Virus record (IMG/VR): IMGVR_UViG_3300023174_000056
Span: 62,001-126,000 of that record
Source of the DNA: a virus
Direction: 5' to 3' (one strand)
DNA: 64,000 nucleotides
The notes under the pieces were generated by a model. The model was not told the origin of the DNA. It worked only from the letters and a program-made list of their open reading frames with translations, and made no database searches. Position numbers and translations under genes: made by a program. This document shows, one piece after another, positions 42,134-61,483 of this stretch (positions are counted from its first letter, which is position 1; every line of letters starts with the position of its first letter).

Positions 42134-44701
42134 TTATCGTCTGACAATTCTAACAACAGCAGAGTTTAATTTTTCTGATATTGTCTCTTCACTTCCTATA
42201 GGTCTTGTTTCTTTGGCGGCTTTTTTGCCAGCATTGTCAGGTAAAACGGCAGTTGCGCCATTTAATATAGTTCTTGCGCCAATTTTCATAGAAAAATTAA
42301 TATCTATTTTACGTCCTGTTTGTTTTGAAGTTAAGCGAATTTTATATTTTTTATCCCATACTGTTGGACCAACACCAAAAGAAGGATTAATTGGAGCAGT
42401 TGATGGATCTTCTACTTTGTTTAGTAGAGTTTGAGTATATGATGGCGTTAGATATAGGTATTTTTTAAGACTTTTGCTTCCAACTACACCAGCATCATCT
42501 TTGAATTCATGTACAGATATTATTGGATAATAAACACCGCTATTATAGACTATTTCAATTTTGTACACAACAGTTGGGTTTGATTTTAAATTATTTTCGC
42601 CAACTTGTCTAAAAATATAATAATATTTTTTATTGTATTCTAAAGTATCAATAAATGATTCTGCTTGGATTGTTGTATATAATTGATTTTTAAAATCTTC
42701 GTATTTATATGGTTCTTTATCTATTCTAAATATTTCATACACTGATGGCGTTTTATTATAAATTGTAGGATCTGTATTTTGCATACCTGCTAAATCGCCA
42801 TTATAATCTATGGAATTCTTAAAGCCAAATTCAATACGTCCGTCTGGGAACCTTAGAGAATTAGCTTCTACAAATCGAATTGTGTCTCCATCGCTATCTA
42901 ATAATGGTACAAAATAATCTTTATAAAAATCAATCGTAGGTTGGAAATTAAATTTAATTTTATTTTTTAAGTCTTTATATGGGATTGGAGTTACAATTGG
43001 GGAAGTCGGAGGTCTTACTGGCTCCGGTACAAAAGAGTTCATTACAAGATCATCTTCTCCAAGTACTGGTATTTCAAAGACGTAAAGTAATTGTTTTGTA
43101 GTGACTTCTAAAATTGTTGGTTGTATTGCAGCAGCTTTTATGCCTAAATTAGTATCTTGTGTTTGTTTTGCCGTTGATGGTACTAATCTAGATAATTTAT
43201 TTAAGCCAACTTGCTCTAAAGTTTTTAAAGTTTCTAAAGAAGAAGGACTAGTATTTTGCTGTATTACCGTAAATTGTGAAGTTGTTTGTAATTGATTATT
43301 AGATTGAATAACTATTTGTGGAGGATTAATTGTATCTTGCAAAGTAGCTTGATTATTTTTTTGTTTTTTACCTTTGTTATCGATAGAGCCTAGGGAATAC
43401 TTATACTGATTTCCTATTGCTAAAACATAATAATATGTGTTATACTGGTACTCCTCAGCGTCAATTATTTGCGTGTCAATAAATTTTAGTAAATCCTCTT
43501 TTGTATTTTCAAAATAGTATGTTTGTACTACTCCAACTCCTTTTTTTTCTTTCTCTATTTTTATACCTACAACTTCCGTATAGCAATCTTTACCGGACAA
43601 TATTTCATACCAATTTCTAGTATTTTTAGAAGTAATAAAAGTAGATTTACCTAATAATATTCTTGATAGCAAGTTAGATAAAAAAACATTATCTCCAGTT
43701 GCTGGTAGCGAATCGTTTGTCTTATTTCCTATATAAAATGCATTTGAATTTTGGCTAAAATCAAAATATCTATTATTATTTATATCTGCGCTATTTTTTA
43801 ATATGTTTTCAAGCCATTCTGTGTAATCAAAGTATTTTATGCTATTATTTGTTGTTAATGACGCAACGATATCTACAGACCCAGTAGCACTTTCTACATC
43901 AAAATAAGGATGAATGTATCTTTTTAATTTATTAAACGGTAAAGCAGGAGACGAATCAGAACTACCAATTTCAACCATCTTAGATAAGAAATTTAATCCA
44001 TAATAAGTTTCATCAATTGCGCTAATAAAATCACCAGATGCATATTTATAAAAATCTACAGATGTATAATTTGGAAATAACTCTGCTGTAACTTCGCTAT
44101 ATGGAACATCTTTTGGATTAAAAGCAATTGTTTTTAATTTATCTTTATATTTTTTATCAAAAACATCTTTCCATTTTTCAAATGTTTTAACATAATTGCT
44201 ATAAAACGTATTAATGGTTTTTTTATCAAACAAAAAATCATCAATTTGATAGCCATTTGTAACGATATTTTCAATATCAGGGTTGTCTCTAATGTCTTTA
44301 GAAATAAGCAGATAATAGTTTAATAAATTTAATTCATCATTATAGTCTTTAGCTAATTTATTATATTCACTATTATAAAAATTAATTTTGTTAGTTATTT
44401 CTAATTTTGATGCTGGACCTACATTTGAGAATGTGCTCAACTCTTTATTTTTAATAACAAACGGAGATGATATTTCAAAAATAAAATCTTTGTATGTCTT
44501 GGTTAAATCAATATCTTGAATCAAGCTAGCATCTGGAACAAGCAAATAATACTTGCCGTCTTTATCTTTGGAAAATTTTTTTACATTCGATGAATCAATT
44601 GAAATACTGTTATTACCCTGAACCCATTCATTCTTGTATAATTTTCTAATTTGATCTTCATCTGTAAAAAAATAAAAATTTGAATCACCGACTTTTTTCA
44701 T
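42134..44701 (-). CDS. Large tail/baseplate protein with FN3-like repeats
   Basis: 855 residues. The N-terminal ~400 residues are rich in Asn, Asp, Tyr and Lys with no recognised domain. Two regions with an FN3-like pattern are visible: KFIDTQIIDAEEYQYNTYYYVLAIGNQYKYSLG near residue 415 and AESFIDTLEYNKKYYYIFRQVGENNLKSNPTVVYKIEIV near 690, both ending in a Y-x-Y-V/I-strand. A Gln/Thr/Ser-rich linker lies between them. The C-terminus is basic (SAVVRIVRR). Probably a structural part of the baseplate periphery; the family is unknown to me. Confidence 0.55.
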   Translation of the reverse strand: MKKVGDSNFYFFTDEDQIRKLYKNEWVQGNNSISIDSSNVKKFSKDKDGKYYLLVPDASLIQDIDLTKTYKDFIFEISSPFVIKNKELSTFSNVGPASKLEITNKINFYNSEYNKLAKDYNDELNLLNYYLLISKDIRDNPDIENIVTNGYQIDDFLFDKKTINTFYSNYVKTFEKWKDVFDKKYKDKLKTIAFNPKDVPYSEVTAELFPNYTSVDFYKYASGDFISAIDETYYGLNFLSKMVEIGSSDSSPALPFNKLKRYIHPYFDVESATGSVDIVASLTTNNSIKYFDYTEWLENILKNSADINNNRYFDFSQNSNAFYIGNKTNDSLPATGDNVFLSNLLSRILLGKSTFITSKNTRNWYEILSGKDCYTEVVGIKIEKEKKGVGVVQTYYFENTKEDLLKFIDTQIIDAEEYQYNTYYYVLAIGNQYKYSLGSIDNKGKKQKNNQATLQDTINPPQIVIQSNNQLQTTSQFTVIQQNTSPSSLETLKTLEQVGLNKLSRLVPSTAKQTQDTNLGIKAAAIQPTILEVTTKQLLYVFEIPVLGEDDLVMNSFVPEPVRPPTSPIVTPIPYKDLKNKIKFNFQPTIDFYKDYFVPLLDSDGDTIRFVEANSLRFPDGRIEFGFKNSIDYNGDLAGMQNTDPTIYNKTPSVYEIFRIDKEPYKYEDFKNQLYTTIQAESFIDTLEYNKKYYYIFRQVGENNLKSNPTVVYKIEIVYNSGVYYPIISVHEFKDDAGVVGSKSLKKYLYLTPSYTQTLLNKVEDPSTAPINPSFGVGPTVWDKKYKIRLTSKQTGRKIDINFSMKIGARTILNGATAVLPDNAGKKAAKETRPIGSEETISEKLNSAVVRIVRR

Positions 44702-44713
44702 TTTATTTTCTCT

Positions 44714-47700
44714 TTATTGTGTTTTATAGCTTACTATTAATACATTCTCGTTTTGTGTTCCTCTAAAACCTTTTACACCAACACGGTCTAAAACGCTTGG
44801 AACCTTATAAAATCTAGCGTCAGTGTATTGATCTGCTTGATCGCCTAATTCATATCTTATATCAATTTCTTCAAAAATTTTGTCTGGGTTCGTAAATATA
44901 TCTGTCACTTCCCCATCAGATTCGGCTCTTATTGTTAACCAAGCACCTGGTTCTAGTTTTCCTTTAGAATTTTTAAAATAATCAATTTTACTAAAATCCC
45001 CAACATTTGCCAATTGTGACTGTGGCATTGTTGGAACTAAATATAGATAAACTAATGGATCGCCCTTTTTAAACTTAGTACCAAGGAATGGGGCTGTTAT
45101 ATTTCCGTCTTTTTCAAAAGTAAGATATATTGCATTTTCAAATTGTTGTTTAAGCAAACCAAGCATTGATGGAGTGTAACCAGACGAATCTTTTGTTTCG
45201 TCCGCAATTTGTCCGTACTCTGGGACGCCCGTGAAGCTTAAAAAGTTATTTAACTTTACATTCCTTGTTATAGCGGTATTGAGTACTGGTACAAGATATG
45301 GTTTTGAAGGCTCTACTGCATAAAATGTAATACTTGGCTTTTCTACTATTGCCACAATATCAATTGGAGTAGTCTGGTCTACAACTGCACCCTTTGAATG
45401 TGAATAAATAAAATGCTGATTATGTACGGGCACATTACCATAAGTTGGCGAAGTCAAAAATGCCTTATCATTTACATATGGTCTAAGGAAGCATAGATAA
45501 TTGCCGTTTTTTTCATCGTTTGAAAATCTCGTATATACAGGATCTTTTAATATATAAACGCCTTTATGTTTTTTAAAAGAAATTTTCTCAACTTCTCTAA
45601 CAGTTTCGTACATTAATTTAAATTTGCTGGTTTTCCTTAGATTGATAGTAGAAAATTCTGAATTTGCTGGTAAAAACAGCGGACTTTCACCAGAAGAAAA
45701 ATTTTCTTGATTAGAATAATAGCTTAATTTTGCTTCAAAAATTGTCTTAACACTTTTATTTGTCTCATCCCCTATGGTAGTTGAATCGTTTAGAATTCCT
45801 GCTGTTAGCTTATAAAGCACACCAGAATCAATAAAATATAAAAGCTCTGATAAAATAGCTTCTGCTCTGTCTTCTCCATAAAGATTTTTTGTTTTTTCGT
45901 CAATAGCGTTTTGAATAAAAAATTCATCAAATAAGGTGCTTGTAGATATATCGTTAAGCTGTAAAATAGTTAAATCTGATGCTATTTTTTTAAGAGCAGC
46001 AACACCTTTTGTAGAAATAAGGTTCTCTTCTTTTAAGCTGTATAAATAAGCTTCAAATTCTTTTTTACCGTACAAGCTTAATAAGAAATCAACAGAAGCG
46101 TATGCAGAGTATTTAACTTCGTTTGACTGCTTAACGGCTTCTAATTCGTTTATTTTTTGTAGATCAAGCTTATAAAGTTGTTTATTGAAATCTTTGTAAG
46201 TAATATATTTTAAAAATTGATTAAATTTTGTATTCTGTATCTCTGAATCGAGGACACTAGAAAGCCCGTAACTCTTACTTTGGTTTTTATTAAAAAAATC
46301 AAGTCCAAAGCAATTTGTAGTTGTGGCATCTGCGATAAAATTATTGAAAACAACTTCTGTTTTAATTGTTTGTATGAAATTTGGTACAGAATTTAGAGAT
46401 GGGCTAGAAGAATTATATGATGCTGGTAATTCTGATAAACCATTATTTGGATTTATGCTTTTAGTGGATAAAATTTTATTTATATTTTCAAATAATTGTT
46501 CATAAAGTTTTAAAAATCCTTCTACACCTTCTGGATTACCTGTTTCTGGCTTTATTCCATAATAAATACTTGAGGCTAAACGTTCAATATGCTCTTGTAA
46601 ATCTATTTTATCTTTTTTAATTTTATCAGTATCTAGAAAAATTACATAAGTTCTTAAAAATCCAAGAATATTTTTAACTGCTTCTTCGCTAGAAAATATA
46701 TCTTGCAAGCCACTAGAAAAACGGTTTTCCGAAGCTATGTAAAAGCCCTCTTTTAAGTTTGCTAGATTTGTTTCTTTAAAAATATATTCACTTGCAACAT
46801 CAATATGTGGGTTTTCATCATATACATTTTCTGCTTGCAAATAAGGAATTGATGATATTTTTTGGTAAGCTTTTAAATAATTGTAACTTTTTAATAAGTA
46901 ATCATTTATTTTTTGTAAAATAGCATATGCAGGATCTACTATTTCTATTGAAAATTTGTACTTATATCTACCATTTGTAATATTTTTGAATGTTGTATCC
47001 ATTCCACTGAAAAATACAAGCTCGGGAGCATTATTTATAATGCTTGCGTGCAATTGATTATAATTTACTTCTTTTGCCGTAACTCCCTCTAAAATTACTT
47101 TTTCTTCATAATCGCCATATTTGTTTGGAACTTCATTTATTCTAGATAATTTTGCATTTAGGATAAAGCTAGAATTTGTTATGCTTGTATTATTAACAGT
47201 TGCTAGTTCGGCTAACTTACCAATTATTGAATTTTCTTTTAAAAATCTTTTTATATCAAAAAAGAATCCAAATTTAACAACATTTGAAACTTCTTGGTCT
47301 GCAATTTCATAGTATTCTACTTCTTTGCTTTTCTTACGTCTCTTTAATAATAAATTTTCATTGTCGTATGCAGCAAAAAAATCAGAAAAATAATCTAAAT
47401 TTGCTTTTTTTGTTTCTGATAAATTTGAATCATAAATATATTCTGGGATGTTTGTTAAAATTGTTGTATCGACTACGGTATTTGCAATGTCTCTTTCAAT
47501 TTTTCTATTGTTTATAATTCTTTGTATTTCTGGGGTGCCTACAAAATACTCCTCTGTGCCCAAAGAATTATTTAGATCTAAACCGTATTCTTTACAAATT
47601 TCTAAAGAATCGTAATACGATAAAAATACTACAGACAAATGTAAAATATCTTCAATTTTTTCTTTGTAGATATTATTTTCAAATTCAATTACAAATTTAG

Positions 47701-48097
47701 TTAAGTTAGCCTTTTTATCTTCAATCACTTTTTTAAAGTTTTGAAAAGAAAACGTATGTGTTCTATAGTTTTCTAATGCCACTGCCGATAAAGGGTCTTC
47801 AGATAATCTTTTTGCCTCTTGTTCATCTAAACAAATAATTGTTTTAAATTTTAAAAATTTATTTAAAATTTCATTGTTGAACCATGTTCCGCTATTTTGT
47901 ATTTTTTTATAATTGTCAAATAAGTGGAATTTGAATTTAAAATTTAATATGTTTTTGGGGTTTGATGAACCTTTTACTGGTTTTATTAAAGATTCAACCT
48001 CAAAAGAAACATCATTTACTTTTTTTGAAATAACACAGCTATCATAAGTTAACTGTGGAACAGTAGCGGTTGATATTTCGTTTATTAAACTTGTCAT
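44714..48097 (-). CDS. Large structural protein of the baseplate region
   Basis: 1127 residues from the ATG at 48097, which overlaps the previous stop in a TAATG and has GAGG seven bases upstream. The sequence is Asn/Lys/Ser-rich with alternating helices and strands and no recognised domain. The C-terminal ~250 residues include FLRPYVNDKAFLTSPTYGNVPVHNQHFIYSHSK and SKGKLEPGAWLTIRAESDGEVTDIFTNP, a beta-rich end. Position between the giant lectin/propeller protein and other virion proteins suggests a baseplate wedge or arm component. Confidence 0.55.
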   Translation of the reverse strand: MTSLINEISTATVPQLTYDSCVISKKVNDVSFEVESLIKPVKGSSNPKNILNFKFKFHLFDNYKKIQNSGTWFNNEILNKFLKFKTIICLDEQEAKRLSEDPLSAVALENYRTHTFSFQNFKKVIEDKKANLTKFVIEFENNIYKEKIEDILHLSVVFLSYYDSLEICKEYGLDLNNSLGTEEYFVGTPEIQRIINNRKIERDIANTVVDTTILTNIPEYIYDSNLSETKKANLDYFSDFFAAYDNENLLLKRRKKSKEVEYYEIADQEVSNVVKFGFFFDIKRFLKENSIIGKLAELATVNNTSITNSSFILNAKLSRINEVPNKYGDYEEKVILEGVTAKEVNYNQLHASIINNAPELVFFSGMDTTFKNITNGRYKYKFSIEIVDPAYAILQKINDYLLKSYNYLKAYQKISSIPYLQAENVYDENPHIDVASEYIFKETNLANLKEGFYIASENRFSSGLQDIFSSEEAVKNILGFLRTYVIFLDTDKIKKDKIDLQEHIERLASSIYYGIKPETGNPEGVEGFLKLYEQLFENINKILSTKSINPNNGLSELPASYNSSSPSLNSVPNFIQTIKTEVVFNNFIADATTTNCFGLDFFNKNQSKSYGLSSVLDSEIQNTKFNQFLKYITYKDFNKQLYKLDLQKINELEAVKQSNEVKYSAYASVDFLLSLYGKKEFEAYLYSLKEENLISTKGVAALKKIASDLTILQLNDISTSTLFDEFFIQNAIDEKTKNLYGEDRAEAILSELLYFIDSGVLYKLTAGILNDSTTIGDETNKSVKTIFEAKLSYYSNQENFSSGESPLFLPANSEFSTINLRKTSKFKLMYETVREVEKISFKKHKGVYILKDPVYTRFSNDEKNGNYLCFLRPYVNDKAFLTSPTYGNVPVHNQHFIYSHSKGAVVDQTTPIDIVAIVEKPSITFYAVEPSKPYLVPVLNTAITRNVKLNNFLSFTGVPEYGQIADETKDSSGYTPSMLGLLKQQFENAIYLTFEKDGNITAPFLGTKFKKGDPLVYLYLVPTMPQSQLANVGDFSKIDYFKNSKGKLEPGAWLTIRAESDGEVTDIFTNPDKIFEEIDIRYELGDQADQYTDARFYKVPSVLDRVGVKGFRGTQNENVLIVSYKTQ

Positions 48098-48951
48098 TAA
48101 CAATCCTCACCAAATGGTGGTTTAACTGTTTTTGTAGGTATAGATGAAATTTCTTTTGATAACTCTTCAAGGCTTATTTCATCATCTACTAAAATGTTAA
48201 AATAATTATCAGCAAGTGTTAAATTTTCATCAATTCTTTCTTCCGGTACTTCACTTTCATCTAATAAGATATTATTAACAACATACTCTTTTGGTTTCCT
48301 GAACTTTATTTGTTCTAAAAATTCTTCATTATTCTGATCTTCTTTTACTTCATAAAGCTCCATATCAAATGATTCTTTTTCAAAATCAACATTAAGCTCG
48401 GAAATGTCTAGTAAAACATACGTATTTTCTATTCTCAAAGCAGACTTATCATTAAAAAAGATGTCTGTACCCTTTTTTTCTTCTTCTGGTTTTATTGTTT
48501 TCACCTCATATTGAACTTTTTTTAAGTTAATTTGAGGAATATCTAAATCATTATTATTTTTAGTATATTTTTGCTCAAAACTCTCCGCTTCGCCACTTAA
48601 GATATTAATCTTCCACGCTGGTTTATAATCTTTATTCAGAGAAGAGTTACCCAATAAATTATTAATAAGACCACTATCCGATTTTTGGTCTAACGGAGAA
48701 ATTTTTTTATTTGTATTATCTACAGAAGTAAATCTTGTTTGAGGTTTAACATATAAACTTTCTTCAAGAATTCTCAAAGAAGACGAAAGCTGTATCTCAT
48801 CGTTAGACTCAGCGTATTTTATATCATAAATAATATCATCATCATGAAAAGTATAATAAGCTGGCTTAAATTTGCCTTCTAGGAGAAGCTTTTTTCCATA
48901 AGGTGTTAATTCTATATTGATTACTTCTTCCTTGCTATCAAAAAAAGACAT
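48097..48951 (-). CDS. Virion protein with MSFFD / DDDIIYD N-terminal domain
   Basis: 284 residues. The start MSFFDSKEEVINIELTPYGKKLLLEGKFKPAYYTFHDDDIIYDIKYAE is related in pattern to the start of 41146-42072. The remainder is acidic (many Glu and Asp) and lacks recognisable domains; it ends PFGEDC. It lies directly after the giant gene (11-base gap) and overlaps the next gene by one base. A small adaptor to the giant protein is plausible but unproven. AGGATAA site. Confidence 0.55.
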   Translation of the reverse strand: MSFFDSKEEVINIELTPYGKKLLLEGKFKPAYYTFHDDDIIYDIKYAESNDEIQLSSSLRILEESLYVKPQTRFTSVDNTNKKISPLDQKSDSGLINNLLGNSSLNKDYKPAWKINILSGEAESFEQKYTKNNNDLDIPQINLKKVQYEVKTIKPEEEKKGTDIFFNDKSALRIENTYVLLDISELNVDFEKESFDMELYEVKEDQNNEEFLEQIKFRKPKEYVVNNILLDESEVPEERIDENLTLADNYFNILVDDEISLEELSKEISSIPTKTVKPPFGEDC

Positions 48952-48962
48952 ATTTTATCCTC

Positions 48963-51900
48963 TTATTTTTTTATTTTTCTTGAAAATGACGCTTTTATGT
49001 TTTTTACTGCTGCTTGAGCTGTTGATGAATTTATTGTTTTTAATGCACTATTTTGTTGGTTTATTAATTGACTTGTAGTTGCGGTTACATTCAAATTAGT
49101 AGCATTTATATTTTGAATTTGCGCTTGTGCAACAGGGGTAAGCGAATTTACATTAATTGCTTGCAATGAAGAAGTCGGAGATCCGTTTAATGCTGACACC
49201 GTATTTATCTGTGGAACAAATTGAGTCTGAACAAGCGTTGGATTTGCTATCGTTGTCGTTAATTGCGTTGTTCCAATATTTGTATTATTTGTTTCTTGTG
49301 CATTTGTTACTACTGGTGTTGAAGTGTCTGCGTTGGAAGTTACTCTTCTTTGCGTTACAAATGTTTCTCCTGCCGTTTTTGATTTCAAATTAATATCTGT
49401 TTTACCATTTTTTAATTCTACTGTGGCATTAGCCATCTCAATAACAGAACAAAAATCGTAAGGCCAGTTATAAGAATATTCTGGTACTGCTTCTGATGAG
49501 GTAAACTTAAACTTAAAACGCTTTAGCGCCGACTCTTTTGAGTCTTCGACTAATTCATAGTAATTTACATTTGCTTTTTGTTTAATTTTGAAAACTTTAA
49601 ATTTAACATCTTTTGGCAATCTTTTACCGTGGAATAATTCATCCGAATTAAATGGATGTGAGATATTCTTGTTTTCTATATGTGATTCCATAGATTTTGA
49701 TGGCATGACACCTTGCCAGATATCAGATAAATCTGTATAATTACTGTCTTGCTGTAATTCTATATCAAATGGAATAACATACATTACGAAAGGATCAATA
49801 TTTTTGTTTCTTAACCAATCTAGATGAGGTGGCAAAACGAATCTTGTCATTTGTCTAACGGTATCTACTATGCTTGTATTTTTTAAAGAACTATTATTGT
49901 CAATAATTGTTTTTATTTCTTCAAAAGATATTTTTGATTCCTTACCAAAAGAAACCCCAAATGTTTCTTTTAGGATATCTCTATTGATCTTGAAATAATA
50001 TGGTCCTCTTCCTCTTTGATTTGGTTTTAAAATATTGTTTTCACCAAGAATCTCTGGTAATGTTTCTGCAAATTCTTGATTTATTTTTTTCTTTCCATCG
50101 ACATGGTTTTTATTATATGTGTATGGAATCAAAACCAAAGCTTCGCTGACAGTTTTTTCGGATCCTAGAACACCTAAAGTTGGCTTAACGTCAGTTTTAA
50201 ATCCACACATTTGAATTAAAGAACCAGTGTTAGGACCAGTTGGTGATTCTTGCAAATATAGTTTTATACCGCTGCCTTCTTGAACAGGGGAGCCATAAGT
50301 TGTCCAAATTCCTTTAAATAAGTTCTTATAAACGCCCTTAACAGTTCCTGGAATGCTTTTATCACCATCAATAAATTGTAGACCGATGTTATCTGTTAAA
50401 TCTGCATCATTAAAATTAATGCTTGGTGTTTCAAATTTTGTTTGAATTACCCATTTAAATTTTGGAACAAAAGATTTAGTGCCTTTATCTGCTTTTGAAG
50501 TTGCAACATCCACAGATAAATCTAGGTCTTCTGACTTTAATGTCAAATTGATGCTTGATGACAAGTTCATCATTGACTTATATGCTGGAGAATTTTTATA
50601 ATTATCCGCATACGAACTTGAAAAATCATTCAATAGGAAGTTTGATCTTTGCTTGAATAATGCTTCGGCCTCTGAGTTTAGGAATTCAATATTAATAGAA
50701 TCTTGAATTTCCTGTAGGCTGTAGGCTCTTGTTTTTGTATCGCTAGCTAAGAATGAAATTCTTGCAATTGCTTTTCCATAATAATATGGAGGTACATAAG
50801 GAGCATACGAAGGAGTATCTAGTAATTTAGAGTACAAATTATATGGGCCTTTTTGGTATAATAGGCTAGCAGAACCGGCGCTATCCCAGTATCTAACTGG
50901 AGGTCCGTATAATGAATCGGGTGAAGGAATCATAAATGTTCCTTCGCTATGCTTCGCTGGGTCGCTCTTTAGATTCTCGTAGTATGGATCTGTTATAAAT
51001 TCTTTGTAAGCTCCGTCTTTCTCAAGAACAACGTCCATGTAATAACGTGTGCCAGGAATTGCAGCAGCAAACTCGTTTTCTGGCTTGGAAGTTATTGATG
51101 TTAATTTACCTTTAAGGAAGAAATTAGGAATTTCTGCCAAGAAGTTATGCATAGCTAATTTATAGTTTGCATCCAAGAATGTAAATGACTTCAAAGAGCC
51201 AGTACCCATATTGTATGAAGGGTATGCAATATTATTAAAATCAGAACCTGTAATTGTATCTGTTGTATAATGTGTTGGGTTTAAGTAGTACAGATTATTT
51301 GCAGATACTTTTAAGTCATCTGGTATCTTTGTATCAAAATCAATTAAAGCTTCAAATGGTAATCTATAGTTTGGATTTAAATCAATGTAATTTGAAGCAG
51401 TGTAGTTTCTTTGAATATTATTAATGTAATCAAATAGATAATTTGTTGTTAGAGAACTTCCTGTGTTACCGTAAAATACGGGTGGCGTTCTTGAATCATA
51501 GCTAACACTTGATGTAATAAATACAGGGAAATCCACAGCAACTGATGATTTAATAGTATTTAAAAGAATACCTGGCGCAAATAGTGGCTGTAATAAAGCC
51601 AAAACTTGTTGATTTAGTGGCGTTCCATTTGAAAGTGCTGAGTAATATACCTCTTTTGGATTTTTACTTGAAACAAGAGTTCTTTTTAAAGGTAAAAATG
51701 AATTTATGAAATAGCTGCTTAATTGTTCTATTCTTTCACTTGGATAAAATCCTTTATATGGTAACAATTTTTTAATAGCAGAAATATTAATTGTTAATTT
51801 AAAATCATTATCTATGGGTAGACTTTCATCATACAAGAATGTTGTATCAAAGTTTTGCGAAATATTTGTAGAGCTGCTAAGATTATTAAATGAAGATTCC

Positions 51901-54900
51901 TGTAAAGCGCCTTGTAGGGTTAAATAATCGCTTGTTAAAATTGAATTAAAATTACCATTAACTTTTTTAACATAACTTTCCACAAAATTGCTAATTTTAT
52001 ACTCTGGTACTATAGAATACTTTTGAGAGTGTGGTTTAATGTCTTCTATAAATTTTGTATAAGAATCATAAAATGCGCCACGGCCTGCCTTTTGGTCTGT
52101 TTCATAAACATATCCTTGGTTTAAAACAAAGATTGAATTATTGCTAGAAGAATAAACCGTTGTGGTCAAATCTGTATTTGTTGCGTATGTGTTCTCGGCA
52201 ATTTTTAAATTTGAATTTGCATTTGGTGGTATAAAGTTATTAAAAATTAATTGAGGTTTTGGCATAACAATATCTACTGAAGCCGAATATGCTTCAAATT
52301 GATATTTAAAATCTTTTGTTTTAATAGTTGGACCCGATCTTGTGCCAGCAAAACGTCCACCAATAAAAATTTTATTTCCATCAGATACCAAGCTATAAAT
52401 TTCATCATCAGTTGTAAGATTAAAACCATTTCTAATACCGTTCGTACCAACTTGATTCCAATTTGTACCATCCCAGCAAGCTATATTATTTAAAATTGTG
52501 CCATCTGATGCAGAAGTGAAATTTCCAGCGGCATAAATTTTATTGTTTAAAGCTGTGAAAGACCAAATAAGCCCATTTAAAGTTTTAGAAATATCACTCC
52601 AACTTGTTCCATTCCATTTTTTAATAAATGGAGAAGTTACAGCATTACCAGCGTTACCAATAGTGTAGCCATCAGCACCATATACGTATAAACCATCAGA
52701 TGCGGACGCCATAGTAATTACTGTATTGTTTGGCCTTGATGGCGAAGACCCTCCGACTGAGTTCCACTTTACTCCATCCCACCTTGCAATGTTTGCAGTG
52801 TCGCTAATTCCCGTATCGGTAAATCCACCTCCGACATAAATGCCTTCGGAAGATGAAAGCATACAAAATACGCCACTTCCTAAACCGAACGATCCTGTTC
52901 CGAGAGAATTCCAACTTGTCCCATCCCATCTTGCAATACCATCAGCAGCTGCGATTCCCGCAGCATTAGTGAATTTGCCACCGACATAGATTCCTTCAGA
53001 CGCCGAAATTATAGATGAAATTTGATTATTGAAAGAATTCGTAGGTCCAACAATCTGGAAGGAACCACTACTTTTACATAAAACTAAGTTTTTGGCACCA
53101 GAGACACCGCCCCCATTAGTAAATTTACCACCAACATAAACACCAGCGGAGCTAGAGCATAAAGCAAATACAGAATCTCCAAACGTTGATGGAGTAATAT
53201 TTCCTATTGTAACCCAATCATTTTCTTTAGTCCATTTTTTTAGAAAACCTGTTAGGTTACCTATGCTGTTATAATCATTAACAGCCCTTAAACCTGCATA
53301 TACACCGTCAGAGCCGCTTACTAAGCATAAAATATCTCTATCTAAATTGTTTGTATAATCCTGGGTTGTTCCGTATAGAGAATATATATTTCCATTACCA
53401 TATTGGTTTGTATCTAGAATTGCTACATTTTTTATTGGATAGTAAATTTGTTCTAGATCAAAATATTTTTCTAGCAGTATGTCTTTGTTTGAAAGATAGC
53501 CAGAAGTATTTTTTTCATAAAAGATTTTCTGTAATTTATCTGGTACGAATTGTGTAACACTTCCACCAAAAATTATCCCAGACGAACCAGATGTAATTGT
53601 ATTTATTACAGAATAAGAATTTAATGGTAAATATATACTGCCACCAATCGTTCCCCAGCTTGCTCCATCCCATTTTGCTAATCCAATATTTTTATAAGAA
53701 GTATTACCAAAATTTCCAACTTTAGAAAATAACCCACCAATATATACACCATCGGAAGAAGAAAACAGAGAATTTATTCCAGAATTTACAAATGTTGCAG
53801 ATTTGTCTAGAGCATTGTAGGTAACTGTTGATAAAACAGAACCAAAACCTTTCCATTTTGATAAAATAGTATCCCATTTAGCAACGTTAGATACGCTATC
53901 GCTACCAGTTAAAGGAGAAGCTATAGAAAAACTACCGCCGACATAAATACCGTCAGAGCCGGATGAGATTGAAGCAACACGGTCATAATAAGAATTGCCT
54001 CCAACTCCATCACCAATAGTATTTCCAAACGCCGTCCAATTAGTGCCATTCCACACTGCTATATTTTTTGCATTTAGGTTGTTTGAAGCTGCAATAGCAA
54101 AAGCCCCTCCAACATAAAGACCATATGAAGAACTAGCCAAAGAAAATACTGTCGCAGAACTATACAATGAAGACCAGTCAGGGTCTGCGAGTGGTGGCGA
54201 GCCAGGAGAACCAGTGCCAACATTAGTCCAAGTTGAGCCATTCCATAGTGCTATTGTATCGGCATTAGAGACACCGCCAGCGTCTGTAAATACTCCTCCA
54301 ACATAAAGACCTTGAGAAGAGCTGACCATAGAATAAACAATAGTTTTAGAACCATTTGGAGAAAGTGGGGCGCTCCCAGCTGAAGACCCTGTTCCTAAAC
54401 TAACCCAATCTGTTCCATCCCATTTTATAATTGCATTTTTTGATGTAGTAGAATCCAAATTACTAAACTTGCCACCAACGTATAAACCGTCAGCGCCAGA
54501 CACTATTGAATAAACTACGGCATCAGTGACGTTTATTCCATTTTTGAATGTAGTAACTCTTTGTCCATCCCATTTAAGAATACAATTTGCTTTAGAATTA
54601 CCGCCAGCATTTGTAAAATCGCCGCCTATATAAATACCATCAGAAGTAGACAAAGAAGTATTTATATTACTTGCGAATATACCAGTATAAGCTCCAAAGT
54701 TTGTAACAATATTTGTATCCTTATTAAAAGAAAAAATATTATTTACTGGTAACTTAATATTATCAATATTATTTTGTAAAGAATAAGATTCACTATACTG
54801 CAAGTCTTGAGCAAAAATAGAATTTTTTAGTTTATTATTAGGATCAAAAATAAAATTATCGTAAGACCCATAGGAAGAAAATAATTTTGAGCCAATAGTA

Positions 54901-57900
54901 TTATATGAACTTGTAGCAAATCCAAACATATCAACAGTCGATGAAGGTCTTTCACGGTCTACGGCAGAATCCCTCCAGAATGTTTTTGTTTTTACTATGC
55001 TGTCTGTACTACCATTATCTTCATAATTTGGCTTTGTTCTAATGTCGCCTAAACCAATTTTATCTTTTCTTGGGAAAACAAGCTCAGAATAAGCAATACC
55101 AGCCGCCACAGGTTCGTCTATATCTTGTACTTTTGAGGTCAATAGATTATAAATCTTCTTATAGGAAGTTTTATTTCTATCTGGCTGCACTGGTGCAATT
55201 TCATTTTTTAATAATTGATTGGCAATTGTGTCTAAAACGTTTGAATATTCTGTTCTTAAAATTGTGTATACATCATTAATTTTTGTTAATTCTGTATTTA
55301 ATGTTACTCCAAATGTAATTGGTAAATTCCACTCTACAGGTGGTTCAATATAAGGCTTTGTTATGGATTTTACTTCTAATTTTGAAGGCTTTGTTAAGGG
55401 AGGAGACACAGAATCTGCGGCATAGGTTCTTGTTTCCGTTACAAAGTTTGAAGTATTTTTTTGAATAATAAACTTATTATTTTTAAATAATAAATTGGCA
55501 AGTTTATTATTATCTTTTTGTCTTATTTGCTTCCAAGAAGTATATCCAAAAGGTCCATCTTTTTTTAATAAATATTTATGTAAACTTCCGTTCTCATTAA
55601 AAGAAATAGTTGAAGTATCTTGGTTGACAGATGTTGTAATATTTGAATTATTTAAACCAACAAAGTCAATAACTTCGCCAGATTCTGTAGATGCAGATAA
55701 AACAGCAAGTGTACCAATATCAGTATTTGGATATATCGATGAGTAGGGACCACTTGAAGTTATTAAGTTTGTAGCAGACGCTGATATCCAAGCATAACCA
55801 TAATCACTTCTTGGAATTTGATGCGATACGAAGCCGTTATCATACTCATTGCTATTTGCTGTTTTTAAATGATTTTTATTAATCTTATGAAACGATGGGT
55901 TGTTTGAATCTATTGAAGCCGTTTCTCTCATCCAATCGTTTAAAGCTTTTCTTACTAATGGATTTCTATAATTAACTGTATTGTAAACCGAAAATGTTTC
56001 TGACTCTCTATCTAAAGCACCTCTTGATAGCGACTCAGGACCACCTGGGGCTGAGAACCGATTGACCATTATTCCTTCGTATTTCTTACGGGTTGGTAAT
56101 GGATAATCATAAGCGCCACTAATAAATGCGCTTGCAGTAGCAGAAGATAGAACACCTTCTACATCGACTAAATGTTTGTTATTGATTTCTCTACCAGCTG
56201 CTTGAACTATATTATATTGTTTAGAATAGTTTGCTCTTGGTTGGTTAAATAGGGAAGTTCTAGCAGATCCAGAGTCTGCAAACAAAGGTCTTAGTTCTAC
56301 TGAATTTGTTAAACTATTAAGCACATTTACAACTGCAAATGTTTCGATGCCATCAACCAAAGAGTAAGGCTTATCAGCTGCTAAATCATATAATCTTGCC
56401 AAGCGTCTATCATAATATGCAGTTTTTTCATAAACTGTGCTTGTGGCAGCATTATAAGATTTGTATTTTTTCTTATTTGTTTCATTTACAATCGAATCTA
56501 ATAATTTTTGCTTATCAGCATCTGCATCGCCTGATGAAACTATTACTGGCGAGTTAATTCGTTCGGCTCTTTCTTTCAGCCATAACGCACTATCTTCCTG
56601 CGAGAAGCTTGTTAAATCTTCTGGTGCATGGCCTTTCTTCCAATTATATTTTAACTCTTTAATGCCTTTTGCTTGTGCATAATCTACCGTAGTCTTTTTT
56701 ACTTGTGGAAGCTTATAATCGTATTTTGGTCTTTCCAATACGTGGCTTTCAATCATATTTCTAATATTTTGTGAAAATTCAGAACCAGCTGGTGCTAATT
56801 GATATAACATTTCTCCAATAGCTGAATCTATCCATTTATAGAATTCAATATATTTCTCTACAGATGGTTCATTTTCTACTTTTTCAAAAAACTTTCTTCT
56901 TAGGGCGTTTAAGTCTCTATACTCTTGGCGATATTTATTTATTGGATCGCCAATAAGATTATTAAAATCAACAATACCAGCAAACATATTTAACATTTCT
57001 TCTGATATTGTTTGGTACATACTTTTTTCAAAAGCCCAAAACAAACTAACTGGTTTAGTATCTTTTGTAAAAGCGTAGTCCGAATCGCCATAGATATTAA
57101 TTGTGTCTGATGTGTACAGATTCTCTGGGACTGTTTGCTTTGAGGCCAAAGTATAGTGTTTTTTAACTATATCTTTTGAATTTGCCAGAGTTTCTGATGC
57201 TTTGGCTGCATAAGTTTTTTCTACGTTGTAAGAAAATAAGCTGTCAAGACCACTTACAGCCCCTTTGGTATCCTTGACTAAAACTTCACCATTGCTATCG
57301 CTTGATGTTACTTCATCAAAATCCCAGTTAAAAGCTAAAAGATTTATTCTTTCGATCTTTTCATCTAAATTTTCATATGGTTTTGCAATAGGATTTTTTA
57401 CACCAAAATTAGCAGAATCTTTCGCATGTTCTTGAATTTCTTCGTTAGATAGATAATCATACCAGAATCTGGCGTTTGACACTAAGATATCTGTATAATT
57501 CAACACAGAGCCAGTAAAATTGTTTTTTCTAGCGCCTACATAAAATTTCTTAAAATCACCATGAATGTTTTGAACCTGCTCAAGAGTCAATGCAGAGCTT
57601 GTTACTGTGAATTCATTTTTTATATTACCTTCTACTGTGTTTACGCCATAAAATTCTAGATAATAATCTTTCCCAACGGGTAGGGTATTAAAAGCATTAA
57701 TATCATAATTTAACTTGTCTAAGTTATCATATGGAGTTTTTAGTCTAACCGCAAAATTCCATTTTTCTCCCTCGTAAATATCAGAAAAATATTGGCTTCT
57801 TAGATTATTATCAGCGGTAGCAATACAATTAAATTTAAAATATCCGCCCCTATCGTCCTTTTTATTTTTAACTAAAAATGTTTCAAAGTTATAGTGCGAA

Positions 57901-60053
57901 GTGACGATATTAGCTTCATCGGTTAAGTTATTTATAGAATAACCACCAAACAAAGATATATTTGTTTCTTCTGGCACTGAGTAATTTACGTCTGACGTTT
58001 CTAGTTTTTTTGGAAAGAAAATTTCTGTTTCAAACGTTAATGGGATTAAATAATAAGGTACTTTTGCAGTGTCTAAATTTATTGTAGGTAATAGAGACGA
58101 ATAAGAAGTTGTTGAATCGGAGGTTTCATTTGTGTTAAAAATATTTGTTCCGTAGCTATCTGGGGTTGAGAAGTTAAGAACTTTCTTTTTTTCTACGATA
58201 CTCTTCTTGTTGTTTTCAATAGTAAATTCTGTATTATTTGCATAGATATTTAATTTAATCAACTCATCATCTATACCAAATGATCTTATAAGATTTCTAA
58301 AGGATTTTTCTGTACCTTTTGTTTTATAAATATATGTTAAGTTATTTAAGATATTTTTATAAATTAAATTCTTTAAATCTGTTAATTTTTCTTCAAATAG
58401 TCTTTGTTCATCTCTAGATTTTAGATCTTCTATAATTTTAGAATCAACAAAAATATCAGGAGCTAGAAACCCGTTAGATTCTAGAATTGAATTAATAAAT
58501 GGAGCTGGCTTTCTATCTTGCTCGTAATATTCTCCAAAACCAAATGTAGGTAATTCTTTTATTTGAAGATAAATTTTATCAAAATAACTTGCAATTATTT
58601 GAGTAACTTTTTTTAGTTCTTCTGTCGCTACTTCTTCGTCTTCTGTGGTTATCCATTCTGGGAGGCTTCGGTAAATTGAATTACCATTCCGCAAATCCCA
58701 TTCTTGCCCTTTTTCTTTTAATTCTGAACTTTTATTTATAACCAAATAATGGTCTGGGTATAAGATTGGGTCTTTGACTTCTTGGCTTTCAAATAGACCG
58801 CTATCATCAATTGCTGACGATGTTGAGCGGACGCCAGCCGTATAATTTACGATAGTTCCGTTAGAAACACGCCCAGAATAATCTAATATTATAGAATCTC
58901 TCTGGTCTATAGACTCTTCGTTTAAAACGCCTTCATTAAATCTATAGTAAACTCCAAGATCTGTATTTGATAAATCTGTATTTGAACCACCATAAACTCT
59001 ATCGAATAAATAACGTTTTATATCTTTTTGAGTTTTTTCTGTTTTCCAAAATCTAAATTCATCAAAACTTCCAGGTGCTGCACCTAAATTATAATTGCCT
59101 GCGCTATAGAATCTATAAGATCCTAAGTTTGCTAAGAGATTTTTATTATCAAATGATAATGCAGATGCGTACTCGCCGTCTGATTTCCAAACTAATTCGC
59201 CGTCAATATATAATTTTGCAATTAATGTTCCATCATTTTCTTCTCTATTAACAAATGAGAATGCGTAATGATGCCAAGAGTTTAAATCAGTTAAATTATA
59301 ATCTATAGAGACATTTTGTAGAGCGCCATACCCTGAGAGAGGGTCTGTATTACCTTTATAAGTTATAGTAAACTTTTTTTGCGATGCTAAAAGACCTATT
59401 GACAATCTAGCATAATTTGAAGAATTGGTGTCCTCGATGCCGTTCCATAAATCAAATAAACCAAAAGAAGAAGAAAGGACATTTTGTGAAAGCCCTTCTT
59501 CCAACTTAAACCAAAATTCTACAGTATTTCCTTTTTGTGAACTTAAACCAAAATTGGCTTCTTGATTATTATTTACGTTATAGATGTTTCCATCTTTATA
59601 CAAATTTCCTTTTGCATTTGGGCCACTGTATGCCTTAACATATTGTGCGTTATTGCTTACTAAAACTTTAGTATCACCACTTCCTACTGAAGTGTATGCG
59701 GAATCATACGTATCAGAATTTAAAGTAATAAAGCCGGTTGTTTTTGGATATTCACTATCAAAAACATACTTTTCCAAGTAAGTTAATTTATTTCGCCAGT
59801 CAGTTATTTCTGACTCGGAACCATCATATGGATAAGAGCTATAGATATGTTGAATCGCTGAAGAATAATATTCATCAGCTAAACCAAATCTTGCAAAAGA
59901 TTTTGGATCAGAAAAATCTAAATTTGGTATAAATTCTTGGTTCTCTTCATTCTTTTTTTGAATGAAAGTTCTAGATTCTACTTCATTGTAAATTTCTTCT
60001 GGTTTTTCATTTGCTACTTGCTTGGTATCTTTAAATAAGTCTTTTATGGACAT
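48963..60053 (-). CDS. Giant virion protein with LamG domains and two beta-propellers
   Basis: 3,696 residues, 17% of the window. Residues ~140-375 form a LamG/concanavalin-like domain (GNTVEFWFKLEEG, SWHHYAFSFVNRE, DEFRFWKTEKTQ); ~690-880 hold a second (NFETFLVKN, EKWNFAVRLKTP, NARFWYDYLSNEEIQEH). Between them LTYIYKTKGTEKSFRNLIRSFGIDDE is a conserved-looking helical core. Residues ~1790-2180 and ~2235-2580 contain seven plus seven repeats of G-(L/I/V)-Y-V-G-G-x-F with (A)-x-W-(D/N)-G-x-x-W, as in bacterial delta-60/Kelch-like propellers. The end is a Thr/Asn/Gln-rich tail. It follows gp6 and a DNRLRE-like gene, in the gp7 position, so I infer a baseplate arm or host-adhesion protein. Intact frame throughout. 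Confidence 0.8.
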   Translation of the reverse strand: MSIKDLFKDTKQVANEKPEEIYNEVESRTFIQKKNEENQEFIPNLDFSDPKSFARFGLADEYYSSAIQHIYSSYPYDGSESEITDWRNKLTYLEKYVFDSEYPKTTGFITLNSDTYDSAYTSVGSGDTKVLVSNNAQYVKAYSGPNAKGNLYKDGNIYNVNNNQEANFGLSSQKGNTVEFWFKLEEGLSQNVLSSSFGLFDLWNGIEDTNSSNYARLSIGLLASQKKFTITYKGNTDPLSGYGALQNVSIDYNLTDLNSWHHYAFSFVNREENDGTLIAKLYIDGELVWKSDGEYASALSFDNKNLLANLGSYRFYSAGNYNLGAAPGSFDEFRFWKTEKTQKDIKRYLFDRVYGGSNTDLSNTDLGVYYRFNEGVLNEESIDQRDSIILDYSGRVSNGTIVNYTAGVRSTSSAIDDSGLFESQEVKDPILYPDHYLVINKSSELKEKGQEWDLRNGNSIYRSLPEWITTEDEEVATEELKKVTQIIASYFDKIYLQIKELPTFGFGEYYEQDRKPAPFINSILESNGFLAPDIFVDSKIIEDLKSRDEQRLFEEKLTDLKNLIYKNILNNLTYIYKTKGTEKSFRNLIRSFGIDDELIKLNIYANNTEFTIENNKKSIVEKKKVLNFSTPDSYGTNIFNTNETSDSTTSYSSLLPTINLDTAKVPYYLIPLTFETEIFFPKKLETSDVNYSVPEETNISLFGGYSINNLTDEANIVTSHYNFETFLVKNKKDDRGGYFKFNCIATADNNLRSQYFSDIYEGEKWNFAVRLKTPYDNLDKLNYDINAFNTLPVGKDYYLEFYGVNTVEGNIKNEFTVTSSALTLEQVQNIHGDFKKFYVGARKNNFTGSVLNYTDILVSNARFWYDYLSNEEIQEHAKDSANFGVKNPIAKPYENLDEKIERINLLAFNWDFDEVTSSDSNGEVLVKDTKGAVSGLDSLFSYNVEKTYAAKASETLANSKDIVKKHYTLASKQTVPENLYTSDTINIYGDSDYAFTKDTKPVSLFWAFEKSMYQTISEEMLNMFAGIVDFNNLIGDPINKYRQEYRDLNALRRKFFEKVENEPSVEKYIEFYKWIDSAIGEMLYQLAPAGSEFSQNIRNMIESHVLERPKYDYKLPQVKKTTVDYAQAKGIKELKYNWKKGHAPEDLTSFSQEDSALWLKERAERINSPVIVSSGDADADKQKLLDSIVNETNKKKYKSYNAATSTVYEKTAYYDRRLARLYDLAADKPYSLVDGIETFAVVNVLNSLTNSVELRPLFADSGSARTSLFNQPRANYSKQYNIVQAAGREINNKHLVDVEGVLSSATASAFISGAYDYPLPTRKKYEGIMVNRFSAPGGPESLSRGALDRESETFSVYNTVNYRNPLVRKALNDWMRETASIDSNNPSFHKINKNHLKTANSNEYDNGFVSHQIPRSDYGYAWISASATNLITSSGPYSSIYPNTDIGTLAVLSASTESGEVIDFVGLNNSNITTSVNQDTSTISFNENGSLHKYLLKKDGPFGYTSWKQIRQKDNNKLANLLFKNNKFIIQKNTSNFVTETRTYAADSVSPPLTKPSKLEVKSITKPYIEPPVEWNLPITFGVTLNTELTKINDVYTILRTEYSNVLDTIANQLLKNEIAPVQPDRNKTSYKKIYNLLTSKVQDIDEPVAAGIAYSELVFPRKDKIGLGDIRTKPNYEDNGSTDSIVKTKTFWRDSAVDRERPSSTVDMFGFATSSYNTIGSKLFSSYGSYDNFIFDPNNKLKNSIFAQDLQYSESYSLQNNIDNIKLPVNNIFSFNKDTNIVTNFGAYTGIFASNINTSLSTSDGIYIGGDFTNAGGNSKANCILKWDGQRVTTFKNGINVTDAVVYSIVSGADGLYVGGKFSNLDSTTSKNAIIKWDGTDWVSLGTGSSAGSAPLSPNGSKTIVYSMVSSSQGLYVGGVFTDAGGVSNADTIALWNGSTWTNVGTGSPGSPPLADPDWSSLYSSATVFSLASSSYGLYVGGAFAIAASNNLNAKNIAVWNGTNWTAFGNTIGDGVGGNSYYDRVASISSGSDGIYVGGSFSIASPLTGSDSVSNVAKWDTILSKWKGFGSVLSTVTYNALDKSATFVNSGINSLFSSSDGVYIGGLFSKVGNFGNTSYKNIGLAKWDGASWGTIGGSIYLPLNSYSVINTITSGSSGIIFGGSVTQFVPDKLQKIFYEKNTSGYLSNKDILLEKYFDLEQIYYPIKNVAILDTNQYGNGNIYSLYGTTQDYTNNLDRDILCLVSGSDGVYAGLRAVNDYNSIGNLTGFLKKWTKENDWVTIGNITPSTFGDSVFALCSSSAGVYVGGKFTNGGGVSGAKNLVLCKSSGSFQIVGPTNSFNNQISSIISASEGIYVGGKFTNAAGIAAADGIARWDGTSWNSLGTGSFGLGSGVFCMLSSSEGIYVGGGFTDTGISDTANIARWDGVKWNSVGGSSPSRPNNTVITMASASDGLYVYGADGYTIGNAGNAVTSPFIKKWNGTSWSDISKTLNGLIWSFTALNNKIYAAGNFTSASDGTILNNIACWDGTNWNQVGTNGIRNGFNLTTDDEIYSLVSDGNKIFIGGRFAGTRSGPTIKTKDFKYQFEAYSASVDIVMPKPQLIFNNFIPPNANSNLKIAENTYATNTDLTTTVYSSSNNSIFVLNQGYVYETDQKAGRGAFYDSYTKFIEDIKPHSQKYSIVPEYKISNFVESYVKKVNGNFNSILTSDYLTLQGALQESSFNNLSSSTNISQNFDTTFLYDESLPIDNDFKLTINISAIKKLLPYKGFYPSERIEQLSSYFINSFLPLKRTLVSSKNPKEVYYSALSNGTPLNQQVLALLQPLFAPGILLNTIKSSVAVDFPVFITSSVSYDSRTPPVFYGNTGSSLTTNYLFDYINNIQRNYTASNYIDLNPNYRLPFEALIDFDTKIPDDLKVSANNLYYLNPTHYTTDTITGSDFNNIAYPSYNMGTGSLKSFTFLDANYKLAMHNFLAEIPNFFLKGKLTSITSKPENEFAAAIPGTRYYMDVVLEKDGAYKEFITDPYYENLKSDPAKHSEGTFMIPSPDSLYGPPVRYWDSAGSASLLYQKGPYNLYSKLLDTPSYAPYVPPYYYGKAIARISFLASDTKTRAYSLQEIQDSINIEFLNSEAEALFKQRSNFLLNDFSSSYADNYKNSPAYKSMMNLSSSINLTLKSEDLDLSVDVATSKADKGTKSFVPKFKWVIQTKFETPSINFNDADLTDNIGLQFIDGDKSIPGTVKGVYKNLFKGIWTTYGSPVQEGSGIKLYLQESPTGPNTGSLIQMCGFKTDVKPTLGVLGSEKTVSEALVLIPYTYNKNHVDGKKKINQEFAETLPEILGENNILKPNQRGRGPYYFKINRDILKETFGVSFGKESKISFEEIKTIIDNNSSLKNTSIVDTVRQMTRFVLPPHLDWLRNKNIDPFVMYVIPFDIELQQDSNYTDLSDIWQGVMPSKSMESHIENKNISHPFNSDELFHGKRLPKDVKFKVFKIKQKANVNYYELVEDSKESALKRFKFKFTSSEAVPEYSYNWPYDFCSVIEMANATVELKNGKTDINLKSKTAGETFVTQRRVTSNADTSTPVVTNAQETNNTNIGTTQLTTTIANPTLVQTQFVPQINTVSALNGSPTSSLQAINVNSLTPVAQAQIQNINATNLNVTATTSQLINQQNSALKTINSSTAQAAVKNIKASFSRKIKK
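52310..54690 (-). repeat. Coding region of 14 propeller-blade repeats
   Basis: Fourteen divergent repeats inside the giant gene, each about 40-60 codons: IYIGGDF, LYVGGKF, LYVGGVF, LYVGGAF, IYVGGSF, VYIGGLF, IIFGGSV, then after a ~70-residue spacer VYAGLRA, VYVGGKF, IYVGGKF, IYVGGGF, LYVYGAD, IYAAGNF and IFIGGRF. The 7+7 grouping suggests two seven-bladed propellers. Confidence 0.75.
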
Positions 60054-60055
60054 TT

Positions 60056-61483
60056 TTACTGGACCTTAAATTTAAAAGTATTTTTTATTTCATTCAATTG
60101 CGACCCATCGTAAGTTGCAAGTCGTATACCATATGTATAGCCAGGTTCTAAAAACGTTAAATCTAAATCAAAATAATTTCCGTTGGAATCATAAGATGTT
60201 TTAGAGAAAGCGATAGAACCAGTTGAATAATCTATTATAGTATAATTATCGCTTAATCTTAAAATTTTATAGTATAAATTATTTGAAATTGTGTTTTCTA
60301 CAAGATTTGTAGCATTTGTATAAATTGTTGGTTTCCAATCACGATCTCTTATAAAAATTTTAAATCTTGCGTTTTCAGATCCAGTGTAATTTACTTTTAA
60401 ATTTACTATATTTACAACATACTCTGGCGTGCTATCATAATCATAACCATTTGGTTGATTAATATCAAAAGCGCTTGAAAAATATCTTCCAAGAGATGAG
60501 CTATTAATCCATACGTCGTATCCAACGCTCGCTGTTGTGTCCAATGAAACCCTAGCTTTATAAATACCTTCGCTTGGGTTAGAAATCGACAAATAAGAAG
60601 GAGCAATTTCGTTCAACAGAGTTGAATCGCTGTAAAATTTAACATTTAGCTGCGGATCTCCAGCGATGTTTTTTAAGACTCCTCTTGGTTTATTAAAATA
60701 ATATAAGTTCATTATATTATCTTCTGTATCGAAAGCACTGCTAGAAGCAAAGAAATTAGTCCTATCATCAGTTACAACTGCTGCCCATCGTGCTTCAATG
60801 GATGGTCTTTTATAGAAAAACTCACTACCTCTAGCAGAGAATTTTTTTGTATAAAAGCTTCTACCCTCTGTGCCGTCTTCAAAAGAACCAGAAAGTTTTA
60901 CTAAAACACCATTATTTGGAATTGTTGAAGTTATCCAATCTTCTACTAAATTTGTTATATCTAAATCAATATCTTCTAAACCGCTTGAGAATGTTTGAGT
61001 AAAATCATAGCCAGAGCCAGTAATATATGAAGATCCTGTGCCGCTCCAGACCGTTCCACTTTGTGCGTATTCCCAAGTACAGCCAGAACCTTTTAATACA
61101 GGGTGCCAACCAATATCGGAATATGTCTCCATGTCTAAGCCATAGCCTTCATCCCAAGACTGGCTAACAGGATTGATAGAAACACTAAAATCTCTTGGTA
61201 CGCTAAACGGATGTTCAACGTTATATAATTTCAAAAAAAATTTAACGCTCCCAGAGGCCGGAATTTTTGAAGATGTTCTATCTTCTATAATTTGCTCTAT
61301 TGGAAATTGAACTAAAATTCTGCTTTTTTCAACTGAATTATCCGTCGCCTGAGCAAATATAGAAAATATCTCTAACGAGTCGGAAGCTCCCATATTTGCA
61401 TTTACGGCCCTAGTAATTAGATCTGGCTTGAATGCGTCCGTAATTGTTGTATCTTTGCTCGCTACATATTTTTTTATTGGCAT
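60056..61483 (-). CDS. DNRLRE-like carbohydrate-binding virion protein
   Basis: 475 residues. Residues 1-240 carry the DNRLRE/CBM pattern: a start with DTTITDAF and NMGASDSLEI, SRILVQFPIE, FFLKLYNVEHPFSVPRDFSVSINPVSQSWDEGYGLD, then DIDLDITNLVEDWI and a final RRP-type SFYTKKFSARGSEFFYKRPSIEARW. Such domains bind polysaccharide in bacterial surface proteins. The C-terminal half is a set of Ig-like beta domains. It overlaps the end of gp6 in a TAATG and precedes the giant gene by two bases, so it is probably part of the same baseplate arm. Confidence 0.65.
   Translation of the reverse strand: MPIKKYVASKDTTITDAFKPDLITRAVNANMGASDSLEIFSIFAQATDNSVEKSRILVQFPIEQIIEDRTSSKIPASGSVKFFLKLYNVEHPFSVPRDFSVSINPVSQSWDEGYGLDMETYSDIGWHPVLKGSGCTWEYAQSGTVWSGTGSSYITGSGYDFTQTFSSGLEDIDLDITNLVEDWITSTIPNNGVLVKLSGSFEDGTEGRSFYTKKFSARGSEFFYKRPSIEARWAAVVTDDRTNFFASSSAFDTEDNIMNLYYFNKPRGVLKNIAGDPQLNVKFYSDSTLLNEIAPSYLSISNPSEGIYKARVSLDTTASVGYDVWINSSSLGRYFSSAFDINQPNGYDYDSTPEYVVNIVNLKVNYTGSENARFKIFIRDRDWKPTIYTNATNLVENTISNNLYYKILRLSDNYTIIDYSTGSIAFSKTSYDSNGNYFDLDLTFLEPGYTYGIRLATYDGSQLNEIKNTFKFKVQ

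Follow-up and report, generated by a model that had tools for sequence, protein, structure and literature searches.

An apparent insertion of two predicted seven-bladed propellers in a giant, putatively baseplate-associated phage protein

Propellers have a precedent in phage host recognition, as staphylococcal phage phi11 reportedly carries one in its host-recognition protein. Phage tail proteins are already known to shuffle domains (PMC10684548). Pelagimyophages and cyanomyophages are reported to have no T4 gp7, which has apparently been replaced by VrlC, and to encode carbohydrate-binding domains in proteins without an assigned identity in the baseplate or structural operon (PMC7029224). Cyanophage S-SSM7 encodes two proteins of about 3,000 aa after gp6, in the gp7 position: SSSM7_101 (3,007 aa), which has a YHYH domain, and SSSM7_103 (3,001 aa). 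Outside phages, tandem pairs of seven-bladed rings are found in the periplasmic sensor domain of BT4663 (PDB 4a2l) and in other solved double rings.

Here we analysed a window of 64,000 nucleotides (positions 62,001 to 126,000) from the IMG/VR virus record IMGVR_UViG_3300023174_000056, which is 168,144 bases long and has terminase and portal matches together with an SbcC/D-like gene; the repeats, predicted fold, insertion, synteny and family-wide insertion sites described below were all computed. A giant gene in this window encodes a tandem propeller pair, predicted from sequence, close to a gp6-like baseplate wedge gene (Table 1). Flavobacterium phage immuto encodes a "baseplate wedge protein" that the gp6-like product matches at 31%, and homologues of the gp6-like gene and of the intervening 475-aa gene (best homologue identity 53%) were each found at 58 of the 61 IMG/VR loci in our first set of giant-protein homologues. 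A large modular protein near gp6, as proposed in an initial annotation of this DNA, is therefore borne out; the adjoining DNRLRE-like gene proposed with it is not, as the five neighbouring genes scanned gave no such Pfam match at E ≤ 1. Two further large genes follow the giant gene, at 44714–48103 (1,129 aa) and 42134–44701 (855 aa); the former has recognisable relatives at only 2 of the 61 loci and the latter is diverged (46 loci), and both may be host-range genes.

Table 1 Features of the giant gene and its upstream neighbours (positions in the window)
Feature	Position	Strand	Evidence or remark
Giant, putatively baseplate-associated protein, 3,696 aa (P0001)	48963..60053	minus	Single ORF; near-complete IMG/VR homologues ~2,750–4,800 aa
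LamG / concanavalin A-like domain, residues 172–346, family-conserved	59016..59540	minus	Pfam PF13385, E 2.1e-10
Conserved N-terminal core, residues 420–1150	56604..58796	minus	37-member alignment; KGT motif at 579–581
Conserved middle block, residues ~1274–1712	54918..56234	minus	blastp blocks in most homologues
Insertion with both predicted propellers, residues ~1765–2572	52338..54761	minus	Homologue gap lengths; short loop in L313
Predicted propeller ring A, residues 1772–2171: N-terminal strand pair and blades 1–7	53541..54740	minus	AF2
Spacer, residues 2172–2203, two predicted helices	53445..53540	minus	AF2 of pair
Predicted propeller ring B, residues 2210–2571: N-terminal strand pair and blades 8–14	52341..53426	minus	AF2, phrog_5490
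Conserved C-terminal core, residues 2650–3545	49419..52106	minus	31-member alignment
475-aa syntenic gene, between gp6-like and giant genes	60056..61483	minus	58/61 loci
gp6-like baseplate wedge subunit, 606 aa	61483..63303	minus	phrog_219, E 5.8e-17

The blade repeat of the giant protein has the consensus G-x-Y-V-G-G-x-F ... A-x-W-D/N-G-x-x-W. A strict motif for its first half, G-[ILVK]-[YFI]-[VIFA]-[GAY]-[GA], occurs 11 times, and composition shuffles gave at most 2 matches in 2,000 runs (mean 0.06). Both by hand and in the AF2 model we counted 14 A–B strand pairs, which residues 2172–2240 divide into two sets of seven; this places seven blades at residues 1797–2171 and seven at 2241–2571. 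An iterated blade HMM scored 12 of the 14 blades with a whole-protein E-value of 1e-77, which is not independent because these very blades were in its training set; the independent PHROGs library matched phrog_5490 with an E-value of 1.4e-15 for the whole protein, best over residues 2284–2569. The 7 + 7 split described in the initial annotation is recovered by the strand count, and blades 7, 8 and 12 are degenerate as it had claimed, having partly lost the motif. Its spacer of ~70 residues does separate the two sets, but part of it is ring sequence: two helices are followed by the N-terminal strand pair of ring B.

We then modelled the region with AF2, both as a pair (residues 1765–2595, with an alignment of 63 blade proteins, some encoded in bacterial genomes and others on viral contigs) and as ring A alone (residues 1765–2190, with 64 single-ring proteins aligned in register). 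The pair model contains the 14 strand pairs in mostly four-stranded blades (mean pLDDT 76.6, pTM 0.63), with the N-terminal strands of ring A below a pLDDT of 50, and ring B was modelled within this pair only. Ring A alone gave four-stranded blades at pLDDT 79.0 and pTM 0.85, with two strands (residues 1772–1777 and 1782–1785) ahead of blade 1 that align with a G-x-W-x-x-L-G strand found in the same place in ~90% of the single-ring proteins; in the model, these leading strands could supply the two outer strands missing from blade 7. Ring B has the same layout in the pair model, its strand pair lying at ~2210–2225, inside the spacer as first annotated. Taken over both models, the strand inventory gives the seven four-stranded blades of a seven-bladed propeller. 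Foldseek searches with the pair returned tandem double seven-bladed proteins as best matches, led by BT4663 (4a2l, E 6.8e-16) and including GH74, AIP1 and PorZ; these solved double rings share the tandem arrangement, but are only ~10% identical to the phage rings and have unrelated functions. Ring A superposed on natural seven-bladed rings at an rmsd of 6–9 Å and had an eight-bladed design as its top match, so that the number of blades is derived from strand counts and pTM rather than from superposition, and closure of the rings is likewise suggested by strand order and pTM.

One may postulate an alternative in which the 14 repeats form a single 14-bladed ring or an open array; the bacterial relatives mostly have 14 blades with no visible spacer, and their strand order by itself fits one ring or two. 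We regard this as improbable, however, given that single-ring relatives with seven blades exist, that ring A folds by itself at high pTM with its own N-terminal strand pair, that a helical spacer lies between the two sets, and that the top structural matches are double seven-bladed proteins. The predictions therefore favour the two seven-bladed propellers of the initial annotation, spanning residues ~1797–2571.

The same blades were confirmed at 404 or more loci in bacterial genomes and at 114 in viral contigs of IMG/VR. Complete proteins from bacteria include 48 arrays with 14 detected blades and 8 with seven; viral proteins include 42 arrays with six and 21 with seven, and one locus scored among the six-blade arrays (L065, 8930–11383) has seven by eye. 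Counts of seven and 14 are consistent with seven-bladed rings. Among the bacterial relatives at loci L069–L146, exactly 14 detected blades is strongly favoured, again with no visible spacer. Delta-60/DUF5122-like proteins of Hymenobacter, Verrucomicrobia, Chloroflexi and other bacteria have the same repeat (~28–37% identical), often as 14 blades, and differ from the phage protein in their bacterial genome context. Many of the viral blade proteins are ~800 aa long, and the one examined, L065, belongs to a cluster of tail genes, where it immediately follows a probable tape-measure gene. These phrog_5490-type phage proteins share both the blade repeat and the N-terminal strand pair with the giant protein; those of the L065 type differ in having one ring, in following a probable tape-measure gene in another type of phage, and in not being inserted in a gp6-adjacent giant protein. 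The repeats had initially been described as known from bacterial surface or secreted proteins and not from classical T4 baseplates, a view that needs revision in the light of the 114 viral loci and the existence of phrog_5490.

Assignment to a named propeller family was only partly successful. Ring profiles matched designed and natural Kelch chains in the PDB (best E 3e-10 and 1.4e-12), and phrog_5490 was matched as described; no Pfam Kelch model passed its cut-off for the giant protein (Kelch_6, E 3.9), DUF5122/delta-60 (PF17164) fell below its own (E 0.014, 16.1 bits against 27), and NCBIfam gave no match above cut-off for the repeats. A fixed-spacing DNA pattern for the blade had no match in the viral contigs, an annotated phage collection yielded a single weak match, outside the propellers and the C-terminal part, and no delta-60 repeats in phages turned up in the literature searched. 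A catalytic insert, for example a polysaccharide-degrading enzyme, might also be considered, as some double propellers are glycoside hydrolases and the GH74 structure 6p2m is among the Foldseek matches; yet the sequence-level PDB matches are Kelch propellers rather than hydrolases and Pfam gave no convincing enzyme family, and we consider this very improbable.

Comparison with homologues indicates that the propellers are a later addition, as the initial annotation had supposed. Residues 1700–2660 comprise 960 residues here against 85–258 in 36 aligned homologues, and more than 50 distinct IMG/VR relatives from both homologue sets span the site, none of them with blades; among the homologues fetched, blades in this protein family were not seen outside this phage. 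L313, the nearest relative identified, shares 57% identity over residues 1–1705 and 37% over 2593–3551, and has 137 residues between these conserved blocks where the present protein has 888; L248 is similar. Since the joined flanks of the giant protein align across the site with both relatives, the rings have replaced or entered a loop, and by sequence comparison the propeller block is an insertion of ~800 aa into a protein otherwise without blades. A tandem propeller pair in a gp6-adjacent giant protein, together with a relative in which the site is empty, is new.

The age and source of this insertion can be constrained to some degree. Third-position GC is 0.20–0.24 in the rings and 0.20–0.22 in the rest of the gene, from which it follows that the gain was not recent or that the donor had a similar composition. 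A foreign base composition was considered and rejected, as the higher overall GC of the rings arises only through second codon positions and reflects amino-acid content. Recent duplication of one ring within the phage was rejected as well: ring-equivalent blades are on average 35% identical and other pairs 36–38%. As ring-equivalents show no excess, both rings may have been acquired in one step, which would parallel the bacterial 14-blade proteins. An assembly chimera could be suspected, because the insertion is seen in one record only and the nearest relative lacks it, but a single open frame of 11 kb runs through the insertion and the third-position GC of the rings equals that of the remainder; we judge an artefact of this kind to be extremely unlikely.

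The giant protein belongs to a large and widespread, seemingly undescribed family, for which a wider profile scan confirmed at least 400 loci, 80 of which were kept for comparison; the protein appears divided into two or more ORFs in L024, L031, L035, L038 and L047, through gene splitting or assembly error. PDB searches with both core blocks gave no match and PHROG searches with them nothing convincing, so the place of the core in the baseplate is deduced from gene order. Proteins of Microcystis phage Mel-JY01 (1,336 aa) and Flavobacterium phage immuto (gp109, 1,265 aa) are homologous to the N-terminal core (hhalign Prob 98.6 and 97.7) and are likewise encoded a few genes after gp6 relatives, but they are less than half as long as the giant protein and have no match to the C-terminal core. 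The initial annotation had placed the protein at the position of gp7, a label that holds in a positional sense only: a T4 gp7 sequence aligned with both core blocks at an hhalign Prob of just 0.1–0.2%, and the giant gene does not directly follow gp6, as the conserved 475-aa gene intervenes. A KGT motif is common to the giant protein, three short relatives and SSSM7_101 of S-SSM7, and is absent from T4 gp7; this link to SSSM7_101 is a lead without statistical support, and profile comparison of the two core blocks with SSSM7_101 and SSSM7_103 gave nothing significant. The viral fold matches include a BFVD model that bears the name baseplate wedge initiator of S-SSM7 (E 4e-6), with poor superposition.

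Insertions are not restricted to the propeller site. At least ten sites in the 37-member alignment carry inserts of 120–750 residues in some members, and the propeller pair is larger than any other single insert in this alignment. Ten large inserts were scanned: five are of LamG type, one is an FG-GAP propeller and four have no convincing name. In the FG-GAP insert, found in L023 (11931–13193) at a site equivalent to residue 2912, five repeats of the FG-GAP_2 type were detected (E 2.9e-35); L040 and L041 encode 3,723-aa homologues with identical match coordinates. Inserts of 616–747 residues lie at the site matching residue 2717 in L045 (16430–18670), L042 (16493–18601) and L058 (16364–18211); the two scanned, from L045 and L042, gave no convincing Pfam match. 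Two LamG-like domains had been annotated in the giant protein itself, of which one, at residues 172–346, passes the Pfam cut-off in a region kept in 16 aligned homologues; profile comparison did not support the second candidate, at residues 655–900. The family profile of the N-terminal LamG region (59016–59540) has a weak PDB match to a sialidase chain (4c1w, E 0.013).

Our preferred explanation for these results, which we consider probable, is that the propeller pair is a host-binding module added to a baseplate protein, the phage being T4-related and contractile-tailed. On this reading the giant protein would be a baseplate-associated structural protein in which an exposed loop near residue 1765 took in a cassette of ~800 residues comprising two tandem seven-bladed Kelch-like propellers. 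Each ring would be closed by its own N-terminal strand pair, which would complete the final blade, and could therefore enter a loop as a self-contained unit. Presence of the rings in the virion, their copy number, their exposure and their ligand are inferences; the rings would most likely extend outwards from the baseplate and attach to polysaccharide or a different polymer on the host surface, acting as an adsorption aid that varies between phages while the core stays fixed. The large modular adhesin of the initial annotation thus survives in its propellers, insertion, modularity and proximity to gp6, and not in its second LamG domain or its DNRLRE-like gene.

The rings could instead be structural spacers or docking sites that anchor an adjacent fibre or make the baseplate more stable, with no host contact, and propellers do often mediate protein–protein contacts. 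This seems unlikely to us, however, since more than 50 distinct relatives keep the core without rings, which are thus not needed for assembly in the family, and since the other family inserts are LamG- and FG-GAP-type domains that are usually linked to surface binding.

The host-binding reading of the propeller pair may be of less interest than the larger family to which its carrier belongs. A tentative proposal, to which we give somewhat less than even chances, is that the giant family constitutes a fixed chassis in which ten or more sites accept ready-made binding domains (LamG lectins, FG-GAP propellers and tandem Kelch-like propellers), on which host range could evolve by cassette insertion. 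This phage and L313 together provide a clean with/without pair in which a core tail protein has gained a large folded module, and the at least 400 IMG/VR loci of the family offer material for a catalogue of insertion sites and cargo domains. Should the rings bind polymers of the host surface, host recognition would spread from the fibre tips into the body of the baseplate; and if the chassis proposal is true, host range would evolve in a core baseplate protein and not only at the tips of tail fibres.
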